DNA of 64,000 nucleotides from Bacteroides ovatus (GTDB taxonomy: Bacteria; Bacteroidota; Bacteroidia; Bacteroidales; Bacteroidaceae). A program made the position numbers and the translations under genes. The notes under the pieces are model-generated. The model had not been told where the DNA came from. It was given only the letters and a program-made list of their open reading frames with translations, and did no database searches. The stretch spans positions 2,480,001 through 2,544,000 of the forward strand of contig NZ_CP012938.1 of assembly GCF_001314995.1 (NCBI RefSeq), given 5' to 3'. Positions 39,039-44,710 of the stretch are shown in pieces; the stretch's first letter is position 1, and each line of letters opens with the position of its first letter.

Positions 39039-39553
39039 AATAACACAAGCTGAAAATCCCATTTTGCAAAGACGTAAATTTGATTTGTTCTAATGCAAAT
39101 TAAATAGTATAGCTTTACCTTTATTTTAGTTAGTAGAACTAGGTTATCTGACACCCGGGTCTCAGACATACCGACACCCGGGTGTCAGGCATCATGAGAC
39201 CCGGGTGTCAGACAACTTATACTTGCAGTCTTTTGCATTCTTCTTTACTATCACTCATAATTTCAATCACTATTAGATTGTAACATTTAACTCATACCTC
39301 CAAAACACGAATATTAAAAACGCCTAGATAAAGAAAAACACCGGGAAATTTATTAAAAATTTGGGTAGAATATTAATCCCTTCTCAAAAATCAATGAGAA
39401 GCAAAGACTACTAAATTGATAAGAATTGATAAAGGAAGTTTCAATAAAAGAAACCGGAAGAATAGGTTAATTTTTAAAATCCGAAACAAAAACATTGAAA
39501 AACAACAAGATAGGAGAAAAAAAGCAGAAGGAAAGGAGAAAAGAAAAATCAAT
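39039..39553. other. 515-bp non-coding stretch left of the invertible segment
   Basis: It holds palindrome cluster B (39143-39216) and a 6-bp stem CTTCTC/GAGAAG at about 39379-39400 that could end minus-strand transcripts. The rest is A-rich and has no ORF that I can support. Confidence 0.6.
39143..39216. repeat. Palindrome cluster B: three units at exact 23-bp period
   Basis: Three units with the core CCCGGG centre on 39156.5, 39179.5 and 39202.5, a period of exactly 23 bp. The middle unit carries the perfect palindrome GACACCCGGGTGTC. The outer units are mirror images of each other (GTTATCTGACACCCGGGTCT against the complement of the last unit), so the cluster is one nested dyad. The arms TCTGACA/TGTCAGA are shared with cluster A. 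It lies 105 bp behind rpiA. Confidence 0.85.
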
Positions 39554-39770
39554 AAGTCTTAGCAGAACTTGGTACATTCGTGATTGTAAACTTACCGTCA
39601 ATATCAGTGATAGTACCAAGGGTAGTGCCATTCACCAATATTGAAGCACCTACGACAGGTTGCCCATCTTCTTCAGAGGTAACCAAACCGGTAACTCTGG
39701 ATGTTTGCGCTGTCACCAGACCTATACCTATAAAAAGGAAGGTCATTAAGAACATCAATTTTCTTTTCAT
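39549..39770 (-). CDS. SusC-type N-terminal fragment on the invertible segment (pointing away)
   Basis: The 73-codon frame holds a signal peptide (ending GLVTAQ) and the first strands of the carboxypeptidase-regulatory-like domain of SusC proteins (VTGLVTSEEDGQPVVGASIL...). It stops four codons after the inverted repeat. The missing continuation of the domain is exactly what the plus-strand frame at 40125 encodes. It is the 5' end of the SusC gene in inverted orientation. In the present state only this short secreted peptide would be made. Confidence 0.9.
   Translation of the reverse strand: MKRKLMFLMTFLFIGIGLVTAQTSRVTGLVTSEEDGQPVVGASILVNGTTLGTITDIDGKFTITNVPSSAKTY
39554..39574 (-). repeat. 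Left inverted repeat of the SusC inversion
   Basis: The 21-bp site, read on the minus strand, begins TACCAAGTTCTGCTAA and ends ACTT; it differs from the right copy at one base. It lies inside codons for VPSSAKT. Confidence 0.92.
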
Positions 39771-39823
39771 AAATTCTCTCTTAAATTTAACCTATAAACA
39801 GATTTTTTGTCTCTAACAGGTTG

Positions 39824-39831
39824 CAAAGATA
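39824..39831 (-). promoter_or_regulatory. -7 box (TATCTTTG) on the invertible segment
   Basis: This minus-strand TAnnTTTG match lies 54 bp before the fragment's ATG. It travels with the segment, so it drives the SusC/SusD genes only in the ON orientation. Confidence 0.55.
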
Positions 39832-40104
39832 ACACGAATTATGACAAATCGAAAAAAGTGTTACGTATTTAACTAAAAAGTATCGTTTTGAAAGCAATAA
39901 GTTTCTAAAAACTGATAGGTTAAAACAACTTCTTTTAAATTTAGCATCTTTTAAAAGATAGTTTCTGTCATAAAGATAGCACCAAAATCAGGCTTTTCAA
40001 GAAAAAGAGAACATTATTACCTCCAAAACGGTATCTTTTTATCATTTTGCACCTTCAAAAGGGTTAAAGAACTATTAACAATGATAAAGGCAGAAACTTC
40101 TACA

Positions 40105-40125
40105 TACCAAGTTCTGCTAAAACTT
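40105..40125 (+). repeat. Right inverted repeat of the SusC inversion
   Basis: The 21-bp site begins TACCAAGTTCTGCTAA and ends ACTT; the next codon is TTG, the first of the SusC body. It mirrors the copy at 39554-39574 with one mismatch. Confidence 0.92.
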
Positions 40126-43082
40126 TGCGCGTTTCTTATGTAGGAATGATTTCGCAAGACGTTTCCATCAAACCGGGAGTGATAAAAGTTGTTTTGAAAA
40201 GCGACGCGAAGGCACTGGATGAGGTTGTGGTGACAGCCATGGGTATCTCACGCGAGAAAAAAGCACTGGGCTACGCCGTTCAGGACGTAAAATCAGATCA
40301 ACTGACGCAAGCTGCCAACTCTAATCTGGCGGGAGCGTTGCAAGGTAAGGTGTCCGGTTTGGACGTGAAGCCTTCAAGTGGTATGCCGGGAGCTTCTTCA
40401 CAGATCACCATCCGTGGTGCACGTTCTTTCTCGGGTGACAACACTCCGCTTTACGTTATCGACGGAATGCCGGTGACCAGTACTCCTGACGTTAGCACAG
40501 ATATCCAGAACAATGGTAGTGTGAGCGGAGCGGACTTCGCCAACCGTGCAGTGGATATCGACCCTAATGATATTGAAAGTATCAACATTTTGAAAGGTCA
40601 GGCTGCTTCTGCGCTTTATGGTATCCGTGCTTCCAATGGTGTGATTATCATCACGACCAAAAGTGGTAAAGGATTGGAAAAAGGCAAACCGCAGGTTAGC
40701 TTCTCTTCTAATGTCAGCTTCGATGTAGTCGGCCGTCTGCCGGAGTTCCAGAAAACATACGCACAAGGTTCGGGTGGAAAATTCAGTCCCACTTCGGGAA
40801 CCTCTTGGGGACCTAAAATTTCCGAACTTCCCAACGATGCAACGTATGGTGGTAACACGGACAACAAATACACTCAACAGTACGGTAAGCAACAGGGAAA
40901 ATATTATGTACCCCAACGTGCGTCAGCCGGTCTTGACCCATGGGCCACTCCACAGGCATACGACAATGCCAAAGATTTCTTCGATACAGGAATTACCTGG
41001 AGCAACTCACTGAATGTCGCGCAGATGCTCGAAAAAAGTTCCTACTCTATCTCATTGGGAAATACGCACCAGGACGGTATTATCTCAAGCACCGGTATGG
41101 ATAGATATAATGTAAAGGTTAGTGCCGACACCAAACTGACTAGTAACTGGAGTTCCGGATTTACAGCCAACTACATCACTACTTCCATCGACAAGGCAGT
41201 GACTTCCGGTAACGGTCTGTTGAGAACGGTTTACGCAGCTCCTCCCAGTTATGATCTGGCCGGAATTCCAAGCCATGTAGACGGCAACCCGTACACACAA
41301 AATTCTTTCCGTGGTAGCTTTGACAACGCTTATTGGGCGATGGAAAATAATAAATTCACAGAAGATACCAACCGTTTCTTCGGAAACGTATATACAAGCT
41401 ATCAGACTGATTTCGGCACAACTAACCACAAGTTGAACGCAAAATACATGGTCGGTGTGGATGCTTACACTACTCACTACGTAGACAGCTACGGATATGG
41501 TAGTAACACTGGTGGCGGTCGCGGACAGATCGAGAACTACGGCTGGACAAACGCTACATATAACTCATTGCTGACCATCAACTACGACTGGCACATTAAT
41601 GAGGACTGGGGACTGAATGCGGTAGTGGGTAACGAAATTATCCAAAGCAACAGAAAGAAGTATTATGAATATGGTACGAACTACAACTTCCCGGGATGGA
41701 ACCACATCAACAACGCCACTACTCAACAGACAGAAGAAGAGACATGGAAAAACCGCACGGTGGGATTCTTCGGTAACGTATCAGCTTCTTACAGAAATAT
41801 GCTTTATCTGACCCTCACCGGACGTCAGGACTACGTATCTAATATGCCACGTAAGAACCGCTCATTCTTCTATCCTTCTATTTCGGCTGGTTTTATCCTG
41901 ACGGAATTGGATGCATTGAAAAACAATGTCGTTAATCACGCTAAATTGAGAGTATCTTATGCGGAAGTAGGACAGGCAGGAGATTTCCTCGAAAACTACT
42001 ACTCGACTCCGACATACGGAGGTGGTTTCTATATGCTGACTCCAATCATGTACCCGATGAAAGGCACTACCGCCTATACTCCGTACTACACGATTTTCGA
42101 CCCGAAACTGAAACCGCAGAACACACGTTCGTATGAAGTGGGTGCTGACGTGAACTTCCTCGATAACTTAATCACATTCAGTTATACGTACTCACGCCAG
42201 AATGTAAAAGACCAGATTTTCGAAGTGCCTTTGGCTTCTTCTACCGGTGCTAGCAAACTACTCACCAACGGTGGAAAGATTCATACCAACACGCATGAAT
42301 TCACTCTCGGCTTCAACCCCATCCGAACGAAGAATATCAATTGGGATTTTGCATTCAACTGGACAAAGATCGACAACTACGTAGATGAACTGGCACCGGG
42401 TGTAGAAAATATCTCCCTGGGTGGTTACGTTACTCCACAGGTACGCGCTTCAGCAGGTGAAAAATTCCCTGTAATCTATGGTGTAGGTTTCAAGAGAGAT
42501 GAAAACGGCAATCGTCTGGTAGACGAAAACGGTCTTCCTATTGCTGGTGAAGCACAGGTAATCGGCAAGGTTTCTCCGGACTTCCTGATGGGCTTCAACA
42601 CCACATTACGCTTATGGAAGTGTACTATCAGCGCAGTACTCGACTGGAAACAGGGTGGGCAGATGTACAGTAGAACAACCGGACTGGCAGACTACTATGG
42701 TGTCAGCAAGAGAACGGAAAATCGTGAAGGTACTATCATCTTCGACGGATATAAAACTGATGGAACTAAAAATGATATCGCCATCACTGGTGCAAACGCA
42801 CAACAGGTATATTACAGCCGTCTGAACGATATCGACGAATCTTCAGTGTATGACAACTCTTTCATCAAACTGCGTGAAGTAGCTGTCAACTACAAAATTC
42901 TTCAAAAGCGTTCAATTGAACTTTCTGTGAATGCATTTGCCAGAAACATCTTGATCTGGGCACAATTGCCCGACCTCGATCCGGAAGCCAGTCAGGGTAA
43001 CAACAACATGGCAGGAGCATTTGAAGATTATTCAATGCCGCAAACAGCTAGTTTCGGCCTTGGTTTCAACATTAAATTTTAA
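40125..43082 (+). CDS. SusC-like TonB-dependent transporter body, without signal peptide in this orientation
   Basis: The 985-codon frame starts mid-domain with RVSYVGMISQDVSIKPG, the end of the carboxypeptidase-regulatory-like domain. Next come the SusC plug (DEVVVTAMG; LAGALQGKVSGLDV; IRGARSFSGDNTPLYVIDGMPV; DIESINILKGQAASALYGIRASNGVIIITTK) and a complete barrel ending GLGFNIKF. It takes up oligomers with TonB energy and a SusD lid. In this orientation it lacks promoter, start and signal peptide and should be silent. There are no frameshifts in the body, which argues for an intact, reversible switch rather than decay. Confidence 0.92.
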   Translation: MRVSYVGMISQDVSIKPGVIKVVLKSDAKALDEVVVTAMGISREKKALGYAVQDVKSDQLTQAANSNLAGALQGKVSGLDVKPSSGMPGASSQITIRGARSFSGDNTPLYVIDGMPVTSTPDVSTDIQNNGSVSGADFANRAVDIDPNDIESINILKGQAASALYGIRASNGVIIITTKSGKGLEKGKPQVSFSSNVSFDVVGRLPEFQKTYAQGSGGKFSPTSGTSWGPKISELPNDATYGGNTDNKYTQQYGKQQGKYYVPQRASAGLDPWATPQAYDNAKDFFDTGITWSNSLNVAQMLEKSSYSISLGNTHQDGIISSTGMDRYNVKVSADTKLTSNWSSGFTANYITTSIDKAVTSGNGLLRTVYAAPPSYDLAGIPSHVDGNPYTQNSFRGSFDNAYWAMENNKFTEDTNRFFGNVYTSYQTDFGTTNHKLNAKYMVGVDAYTTHYVDSYGYGSNTGGGRGQIENYGWTNATYNSLLTINYDWHINEDWGLNAVVGNEIIQSNRKKYYEYGTNYNFPGWNHINNATTQQTEEETWKNRTVGFFGNVSASYRNMLYLTLTGRQDYVSNMPRKNRSFFYPSISAGFILTELDALKNNVVNHAKLRVSYAEVGQAGDFLENYYSTPTYGGGFYMLTPIMYPMKGTTAYTPYYTIFDPKLKPQNTRSYEVGADVNFLDNLITFSYTYSRQNVKDQIFEVPLASSTGASKLLTNGGKIHTNTHEFTLGFNPIRTKNINWDFAFNWTKIDNYVDELAPGVENISLGGYVTPQVRASAGEKFPVIYGVGFKRDENGNRLVDENGLPIAGEAQVIGKVSPDFLMGFNTTLRLWKCTISAVLDWKQGGQMYSRTTGLADYYGVSKRTENREGTIIFDGYKTDGTKNDIAITGANAQQVYYSRLNDIDESSVYDNSFIKLREVAVNYKILQKRSIELSVNAFARNILIWAQLPDLDPEASQGNNNMAGAFEDYSMPQTASFGLGFNIKF

Positions 43083-43093
43083 TCTGCAAGACA

Positions 43094-44710
43094 ATGAAAA
43101 AATATAAATCAATAGGAAAATTGCTAGCAGTTTCTTTCTTGACTGCTGCCATTGCTTCTGCTTGTACAGAAGATGCAATGGATAAAATCAATGAAAACCC
43201 TAACAATCCGCTGGATGCGCCCGCTAAGTTTTTGATTACGGACTTAGGCGTAAACACTGGATTCAGTACTGTCGGAGGGGATTTCTCACTCTACTCTTCT
43301 GTTTACATAGAACATGAAACGGGTATATCCAATCAGCTTTACCGCGCGGAAGTACGCAGCGGAGAGCCTACAACGGCTACTACTTATAATAACGCATGGA
43401 TTAACGTGTATGCAAATATAAAGAACGCTAAAATCGTTATCAAGAAGTGCGAAGAAGATCCCTCGGAAAAAGGAAACGTAGTGACGGAAGCGATTGCTAA
43501 AATCCTGCTCGCCTACAATGGAGCGGTGGCAGCTGATGTGTTCGGAAACACACCGTACAGCCAGACTGGTATCCTCAATCCGGACGGTACACCGATGTAT
43601 ATGCAACCTAAAATAGATACACAGGAAAGTATCTATCAGGAAGTGATGCAGAACTTGGATGATGCTATCACTCTACTGAATAACGGTACTGCCAAAGATA
43701 CAGGGTTATCCGGTGCAGTCGGTTCTAAAGACTTGATCTATGGTTCAAACACCAGTACACAGGCAAGTATGTGGCTTAAAACGGCCTATGCGTTAAAAGC
43801 ACGCTATACAATGCGTCTGCTCAATAAAAGTGCCAATAAGACGACAGATCTTCAGAATATTCTTACTTATGTAAGCAAATCATTCGCCAATGCAAGCGAA
43901 GAATGTAAGCTGGCTATTTATGATGCTGATGCACAACTAAATCCACTTTGGGCATTCAGCTACAGCCGTAACAGTCTGGCAGCCAGTGCAAGCCTGATTG
44001 AAAAATTTGTTGAACGCAATGACCCCAGAGCACCGCAAGCGTTTCTGGAACCAGACCCTAGCGGAAACTTCCCTGCCGGTTACGCAAGTGGCACGCAAGC
44101 TACGGACATCGCAGGCATCAAAGCGGCTCCTAACGGAACTCCGCAAGAGTTACAGAACAATTATGGTATGTCGATGATATCATGGGCTATGTCGGCTCCT
44201 ACTCTTTTAATCAGCTATCACGAAGTGAAATTCCTTGAGGCAGAAGCATTATGCCGCTTGGGAGGCAGACTGGACGAAGCTAAGAGTGCATTGAAAGCTG
44301 CAATTACCGCCGGATTCGAAAATCTGGAAAACTCAATTATAGATGCCGCTGATACTTGGGTAGCTGATGGCGACAGCGATTTGGGTGCAGATGTGGCAGA
44401 AGCATATTTCACGGATGAAGTGGAACCGTTATTCGATGCTAATCCTCTGCAAGAGACAATGATACAGAAGTATCTTGCTTTCTTCGGCGCATCCGGCGAA
44501 TCACTGGAAGCCTATAATGACTACCGCCGTCTGAAAGGTGCAGGAGAAAACTTCATTGTACTGAAAAACCCGCAGAACAGCAGTAAATTCCCATTGCGCT
44601 TCGGTTATGGAGCAGACGATGTATTGGCAAATCCTGAAGTGAAAGCTGCTTTCGGTGATGGACAGTACGTATATAGCGAGGCCGTATGGTGGGCTGGCGG
44701 AAACAAATAA
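43094..44710 (+). CDS. SusD-like lipoprotein (SusD/RagB superfamily)
   Basis: The 538-residue product has a lipoprotein signal peptide (AIASAC, Cys at 24) and the helical TPR scaffold of SusD-like proteins (for example VTEAIAKILLAYNGAVAADVFGNTPYSQTG and LLISYHEVKFLEAEALCRLGGRLDEAKSALKAAI). It is closer to the SusD-like subgroup with a short N-terminus than to classical SusD. It forms the ligand-binding lid of the transporter encoded 12 bp upstream, so its expression should follow the same DNA switch. No glycan-degrading gene follows. Confidence 0.9.
   Translation: MKKYKSIGKLLAVSFLTAAIASACTEDAMDKINENPNNPLDAPAKFLITDLGVNTGFSTVGGDFSLYSSVYIEHETGISNQLYRAEVRSGEPTTATTYNNAWINVYANIKNAKIVIKKCEEDPSEKGNVVTEAIAKILLAYNGAVAADVFGNTPYSQTGILNPDGTPMYMQPKIDTQESIYQEVMQNLDDAITLLNNGTAKDTGLSGAVGSKDLIYGSNTSTQASMWLKTAYALKARYTMRLLNKSANKTTDLQNILTYVSKSFANASEECKLAIYDADAQLNPLWAFSYSRNSLAASASLIEKFVERNDPRAPQAFLEPDPSGNFPAGYASGTQATDIAGIKAAPNGTPQELQNNYGMSMISWAMSAPTLLISYHEVKFLEAEALCRLGGRLDEAKSALKAAITAGFENLENSIIDAADTWVADGDSDLGADVAEAYFTDEVEPLFDANPLQETMIQKYLAFFGASGESLEAYNDYRRLKGAGENFIVLKNPQNSSKFPLRFGYGADDVLANPEVKAAFGDGQYVYSEAVWWAGGNK

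Follow-up and report, generated by a model that had tools for sequence, protein, structure and literature searches.

A split SusC gene of Bacteroides ovatus as a probable ON/OFF switch operated by DNA inversion

Background

SusC proteins are surface-exposed nutrient importers, and the switching of SusC/SusD pairs through DNA inversion by tyrosine recombinases is an established theme in Bacteroides. The locus investigated here, which lies in a 64,000-nucleotide stretch of the Bacteroides ovatus genome (hereafter the window), poses a simple question in this regard: when a susC gene is assembled as two pieces pointing away from each other, with inverted repeats bounding the segment that carries its beginning, is it the wreck of a past rearrangement or one of the two states of a switch? 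The original prediction favoured a switch caught in its OFF state. The annotation splits the gene into a truncated protein that starts at a TTG (P0241) and a small separate ORF. We examined the locus in the window, in its genome (G000) and in a sample of 158 genomes of the same genus, G000 being counted among them.

Results and discussion

A split gene that inversion would restore

The prediction of 21-bp inverted repeats with a single mismatch at the ends of the segment was borne out at both positions (Table 1), the arms being 21 nt long, 95% complementary and separated by 530 nt. The window has three inverted repeats that reach 21 bp or more, with no more than one mismatch, inside 2 kb; none arose in 40 simulated 64-kb sequences drawn from a first-order Markov model. 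The remaining two (27460/27539 and 39143/39196) are hairpin-like, with arms 58 and 32 nt apart. A chance repeat is ruled out by the simulations (0/40), and an assembly artefact by the identical arrangement in seven genome assemblies.

Table 1. Features of the split SusC locus (window coordinates) and related loci elsewhere in the same genome
Feature	Position	Strand	Remarks
Invertible segment, 572 bp, assembled OFF	39554..40125		delimited by the inverted repeat ends
Left arm	39554..39574	-	core site 39554-39570, on the minus strand AAGTT-CTGCTAA-GACTT
Right arm	40105..40125	+	core site 40109-40125, AAGTT-CTGCTAA-AACTT
SusC N piece	39549..39770	-	signal peptide and first 72 codons; TIGR04056 2-44, PF13715
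Leader and presumed -7 box	39771..39831	-	TATCTTTG at 39824-39831, invariant in the 7 orthologous loci
SusC C piece	40125..43082	+	985 codons; TIGR04056 48-981
SusD partner (SusD-like_2)	43094..44710	+	12 bp downstream of the SusC stop (43082)
SusC shufflon (L160)	G000:C1 ~2.85 Mb		full SusC, recombinase ORF and second SusC C half; spacer CTGCAAA
Second solo split SusC, OFF (L241 / L235:700-1530)	G000:C1 ~2428154-2428963 (2.428 Mb)		spacer CATCAAG; crossover PSSSRT
Inverted site pair upstream of SusC	0.753 Mb		spacer CTATCAG
Inverted site pair upstream of SusC-like gene (named by eye)	2.757 Mb		spacer CTGAAAG

The open reading frames agree with the proposal that the promoter box, signal peptide and first 72 codons point away from the remaining 985. 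As assembled, the N piece starts MKRKLMFLMTFLFIGIGLVTAQ and terminates VPSSAKTY*, giving a peptide of 73 residues (72 codons, then Tyr and a stop), while the 985-residue C piece, read from TTG, begins LRVSYVGM and reaches the end of the barrel, with neither a start region nor a signal peptide. Inversion in silico joins the two in frame, as had been claimed, into a single SusC of 1057 residues, and the in-frame stop at the reconstructed junction, the finding that the prediction had named as fatal to itself, is absent.

The two pieces also cover complementary parts of the SusC/RagA profile TIGR04056, on which the C piece scores 541.1 bits (cut-off 368.25) and the N piece by itself 50 bits. Over the whole protein this profile identifies a SusC/RagA TonB-linked outer membrane protein, whose nearest solved relative by sequence is BT_2264 (5fq6); that of the SusD partner is 3fdh. 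Given the 12-bp spacing between the SusC stop and SusD, it is reasonable to expect that the two would be switched together. The arms and the in-frame reconstruction place the segment among putative invertons, that is, segments flanked by inverted repeats whose inversion alters expression, the change in expression being predicted here.

The box TATCTTTG in the leader is one that we take to be a Bacteroides-type promoter -7 box. A scan for sigma-70-type promoters, which does not cover those of Bacteroides, gave no excess (5 versus a shuffle mean of 4.5), and the fold of the leader RNA is unremarkable (z -1.13; 24 of 200 shuffles fold equally well). A leader core of TA..TTTGCA, GTTAGAG and AAGAGAGAATTT before the ATG (39768-39831, minus strand) is common to related SusC cassettes; the set holds 63 distinct SusC leaders, and those of window-type loci are nearly invariant except in one genome (G001).

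As a separate observation, three near-copies of a GACACCCGGGTGTC palindrome, forming inverted repeats, lie between rpiA and the switch at 39140-39219. Three Rfam matches to the GC-rich palindromes at 39132-39226, all to animal or plant microRNA families and far below gathering scores, were taken as chance, and a structured RNA was rejected.

A probable recombination site within conserved codons

Both arms hold AAGTT-CTGCTAA-(A/G)ACTT, in which short inverted arms flank a spacer of 7 bp, as is usual for the sites of tyrosine recombinases. In frame the site reads CCA AGT TCT GCT AAR ACT T and codes for PSSAKT in the N and C pieces alike, so that the crossover does fall within conserved codons, as proposed. 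The lone A/G mismatch sits just outside the spacer common to both arms, and strand exchange within the spacer would therefore keep the mismatch with its flank. If exchange does fall there, the ON junction would read GCT AAA ACT TTG and not the GCT AAG ACT TTG originally given; both encode Ala-Lys-Thr-Leu. The genome search for further sites that had been suggested returned 16 matches to the 15-base arm core at up to two mismatches, and the only exact ones are the two arms.

Our preferred reading, to which we assign a probability of roughly four in five, is a solo binary ON/OFF phase switch, whose cassette is flipped by a tyrosine recombinase between two AAGTT-N7-(A/G)ACTT sites. The recombinase would exchange strands inside the CTGCTAA spacer of both sites, thereby flipping the 572-bp cassette of promoter, leader, signal peptide and 72 codons. 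In the ON state the reading frame of the cassette would continue into the 985-codon C half, with SusC-SusD transcribed; in the OFF state, the one assembled, the 73-residue peptide would be a dead end and SusC-SusD would be silent.

Conservation and orientation in related genomes

The segment together with the start of the C half finds matches in 9 of the 158 genomes at E <= 1e-60. The full split locus is kept in seven (G000, G143, G126, G101, G012, G106 and G001), which agrees with the invertible-segment reading, in which flipping of this exact locus is inferred; in G108 and G122 a 92%-identical N piece lies inside an unbroken, different SusC. All seven orthologous loci are OFF with both sites intact, and in each the frame is open over at least 985 codons. 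Their segments measure 571-572 bp despite drift in the noncoding part, which retains 63-69% identity to the window over 39901-40000. The spacer is CTGCTAA in G000, G143 and G126 and CTTCTAA in G101, G012, G106 and G001, and within each genome it is identical in both arms. The loci of G101, G012 and G106 (L220, L163 and L221) carry a different C half and SusD (47% identity for SusD) behind a very similar cassette, whose N coding DNA is 94-95% identical to that of the window; the receptor behind the switch differs there and the switch itself is retained.

In the best 80 of 399 relatives from the genome collection, the window arrangement occurs only in B. faecis and B. xylanisolvens; among the other relatives kept, some carry the N part in frame, some are arranged differently and some lack an N part in the stretch compared. 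In one close relative (L048) the locus is interrupted by a contig end.

ON copies were sought in several collections. None of the 30 ON-type junctions (from 28 of the 158 genomes) has the window-type spacer. No full-length protein above 84% identity appears among the matches listed, an absence that is only suggestive since the protein collection is clustered at 90% and ON copies could hide in the 7104-member cluster of P0241. IMG/VR contigs gave no match to the ON junction, which is uninformative because the OFF junction likewise gave none. A possible ON junction is P0021 (84 aa, from a 9.2-kb contig), in which an N piece of B. xylanisolvens type continues into LRISYVG and then diverges, leaving it an ambiguous candidate. 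Among the best 120 of 355 N-piece matches, 74 end in the OFF signature PSS..TY, 5 extend past it, 7 go on into SusC-like sequence and the remaining 34 take some other form, counts that do not give a ratio of states, as full-length proteins lie beyond the length limit of this search. The best ungapped match to the 72-residue N piece among the listed proteins P0121-P0358 is 57/72. By eye, P0243, a 992-aa SusC C half that is near-identical to that of the window for most of its length and divergent in its last part, looks like a mosaic barrel.

Selection on the two halves

For dN/dS the C half was represented by its first 500 codons. The N piece and C half gave, respectively, 0.078 and 0.014 against G143, 0.122 and 0.023 against G126, and 0.124 and 0.041 against G001 (C-half dS 1.5). 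N-piece values against G101 (0.966), G012 (0.217) and G106 (0.681) derive from few changes; the C-half value against G012 is 0.094 at a dS of 2.8, and it was not computable for G101 and G106. By these estimates both halves are under purifying selection relative to the nearest relatives, where it is well measurable. A gene that is silent in all seven assemblies yet purified among its nearest relatives must, by this reasoning, be expressed at times.

These values bear directly on the possibility that an old inversion was frozen OFF and that the gene, broken by a past rearrangement, is a relic. Such a history would account for an OFF state in seven of seven orthologous loci and for the lack of any certain ON copy, but we consider it distinctly unlikely: a relic would hardly show C-half dN/dS of 0.014-0.041 in the comparisons whose dS lies clear of saturation (G143, G126 and G001), open frames of at least 985 codons in all seven loci and a retained -7 box. 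It would also have to explain why both arms hold one spacer per genome that differs between species, a pattern which, coupled with the purifying selection, speaks more for a live switch than for a wreck.

Other probable SusC switches of the genome

The design AAGTT-N7-(A/G)ACTT recurs in the genome at a second split SusC, at two upstream pairs and at a two-SusC shufflon, each with a spacer of its own (Table 1). Counted alone, AAGTTCTNNNNNRACTT shows no clear enrichment (12 rows versus 7 in the control), yet 7 of its 9 distinct places fall at these switches.

In the shufflon a 59-bp inverted repeat with 5 mismatches links the two SusC genes at SSAKT. Its cassette is joined to a C1-type half in G000 and G012 and to a C2-type half in G143, G001, G101 and G106, and the C1 half joined in G000 is silent in G143 (84% identical). 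The shufflon of G126 is unclassifiable: it matches neither C1 nor C2, and several of its reading frames are open over long distances simultaneously. The N piece of the second split SusC ends PSSSRTW*, and its C half, on the opposite strand, starts SSSRTLQITYVGM. Homologues of this second switch are OFF in four further genomes (G126, G012, G106 and G001) and ON in G059, where N and C form one frame with an inverted partner site upstream; G009 has a joined form for which the partner site was not found, and in G074 the homologue is interrupted by a contig end. The upstream pairs of AAGTT-N7-AACT type (L230:7825-8131 and L238:1181-1517) have sites 290 and 320 bp apart, and both, with arms of this kind and spacers of their own, are candidate invertible promoters.

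A further possibility is that the window cassette is a donor that recombines with distant SusC C halves as part of a dispersed shufflon, rather than an ON/OFF switch of its neighbour. Between species, a nearly identical cassette stands ahead of two distinct C halves, which would fit this, but the exact 15-base arm site is found nowhere else in the genome and the other SusC switches carry other spacers, and we regard it as very improbable. For the ON/OFF switch we count as support the site form shared with a shufflon that has its own recombinase and the second-switch homologues seen both OFF and ON; we count against it the uniformly OFF orthologues (7/7), the lack of the window-type spacer at any of the 30 ON-type junctions and of a full-length protein above 84% identity among the matches listed, the N-piece dN/dS of 0.966 and 0.681 against G101 and G106, and the site pattern that is not clearly over-represented.

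Which recombinase

The claim that no recombinase is nearby holds at the Pfam level: the window has no match to PF00589 or PF00239, of which the whole genome has 37 (35 above the cut-off) and 3, respectively. The best candidate for the invertase is the recombinase of the two-SusC shufflon, a 390-aa protein encoded 331 kb from the window switch (G000:C1:2850841-2852010), which would act in trans; XerC/XerD-type models match it, with scores under their cut-offs. In each of the 9 genomes searched it has one close match (81-100% identity), the next recombinase by E-value being 30% identical and short partial matches reaching 37%; its presence in every genome tested does not discriminate. Action in trans has a precedent in Tsr0667 of B. 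fragilis, whose reported targets, in the account of PMC4747536, are three SusC/SusD clusters plus nine other regions.

The switch could be as described but flipped by another recombinase of the genome, a proposal compatible with our main reading that we take seriously without thinking it probable. The 37 PF00589 matches leave room for it, and the shufflon enzyme, occurring in all 9 genomes tested, gains nothing from its presence. Among the compared loci, however, only the shufflon enzyme is encoded inside a SusC cassette whose crossover falls at the same codons, and relatives of it lie near SusC genes in other species, as in B. fragilis (L070, 75% identity).

With the shufflon enzyme as the likeliest operator of the ON/OFF switch, the locus-specific spacers would keep the several SusC switches of the genome from recombining with one another. 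Such an insulating role, like the identity of the enzyme and the co-switching of SusD, is presumed here. A broader picture, which we offer tentatively and hold with some doubt, is that one trans-acting invertase might run at least five SusC switches in the genome (two solo intragenic ON/OFF switches, two upstream promoter-type pairs and one two-gene shufflon), insulated by locus-specific 7-bp spacers, three of which lie in the codons of a conserved protein motif. The window switch, nearly always OFF, might then represent a stock of intact receptors, preserved by ON episodes that are rare but strong enough for the sequence to be purified.

If the switch is rarely flipped and OFF in culture, the SusC/SusD pair would escape ordinary growth tests and annotation. 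Considering the import role and surface exposure of SusC, a receptor that is OFF by default and whose sequence is under selection suggests a gut condition that has still to be reproduced. Because the arms are shared and the spacers private, the way in which a single recombinase might act at several loci and leave them unscrambled is directly open to test.

Comparison with known systems

No description of the window locus was found in the portions of the literature covered, including those of PMC12632263 and PMC12548429; one may stand in supplements. The Tsr0667-controlled inversions of B. fragilis (Nakayama-Imaohji 2009, as relayed in PMC4747536 and PMC11852207) resemble it in that SusC/SusD is controlled through DNA inversion by a tyrosine recombinase, here a candidate one; by these accounts the Tsr0667 clusters are multi-gene shufflons, whereas the window locus has one C half that is ON or OFF. 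The shufflon of the same genome shares with it the crossover at the PSSAKT codons, the AAGTT-N7-GACTT site and the kind of N cassette and leader, but selects between two C halves, holds its recombinase inside its segment and has the spacer CTGCAAA. A SusC shufflon offers at least two alternative C halves per cassette and has a recombinase inside or beside the segment; at the window locus there is one C half, the left flank ends in rpiA with no second SusC piece, and no recombinase was found by Pfam.

In the intergenic shufflon of B. fragilis NCTC 9343 (region EE), inverted repeats likewise overlap ragA/susC starts and decide expression, but, as the passages on it in PMC5729914 describe, several gene pairs are placed there behind an invertible promoter, in contrast to the one gene of the window locus. 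Gene-overlapping invertons of gut Bacteroidales, as outlined in PMC10939037 and PMC11892184, are alike in that inversion alters coding sequence, some of them lying within or near SusC/SusD. The part of PMC10939037 that concerns us counts 311 invertible regions across 39 genomes, which represent 36 species of gut Bacteroidales, the most significant of these regions lying in or close to SusC/SusD or upxY genes, and PMC8042965 gives, in its relevant part, nanopore recombination hotspots near Sus genes of B. xylanisolvens. Set beside these systems, the window locus is real and conserved, and probably a live switch between ON and OFF whose general kind is already known; less expected are its solo intragenic layout, a site placed in a conserved protein motif, arms that are shared while spacers are private, and a uniform OFF state despite purifying selection.
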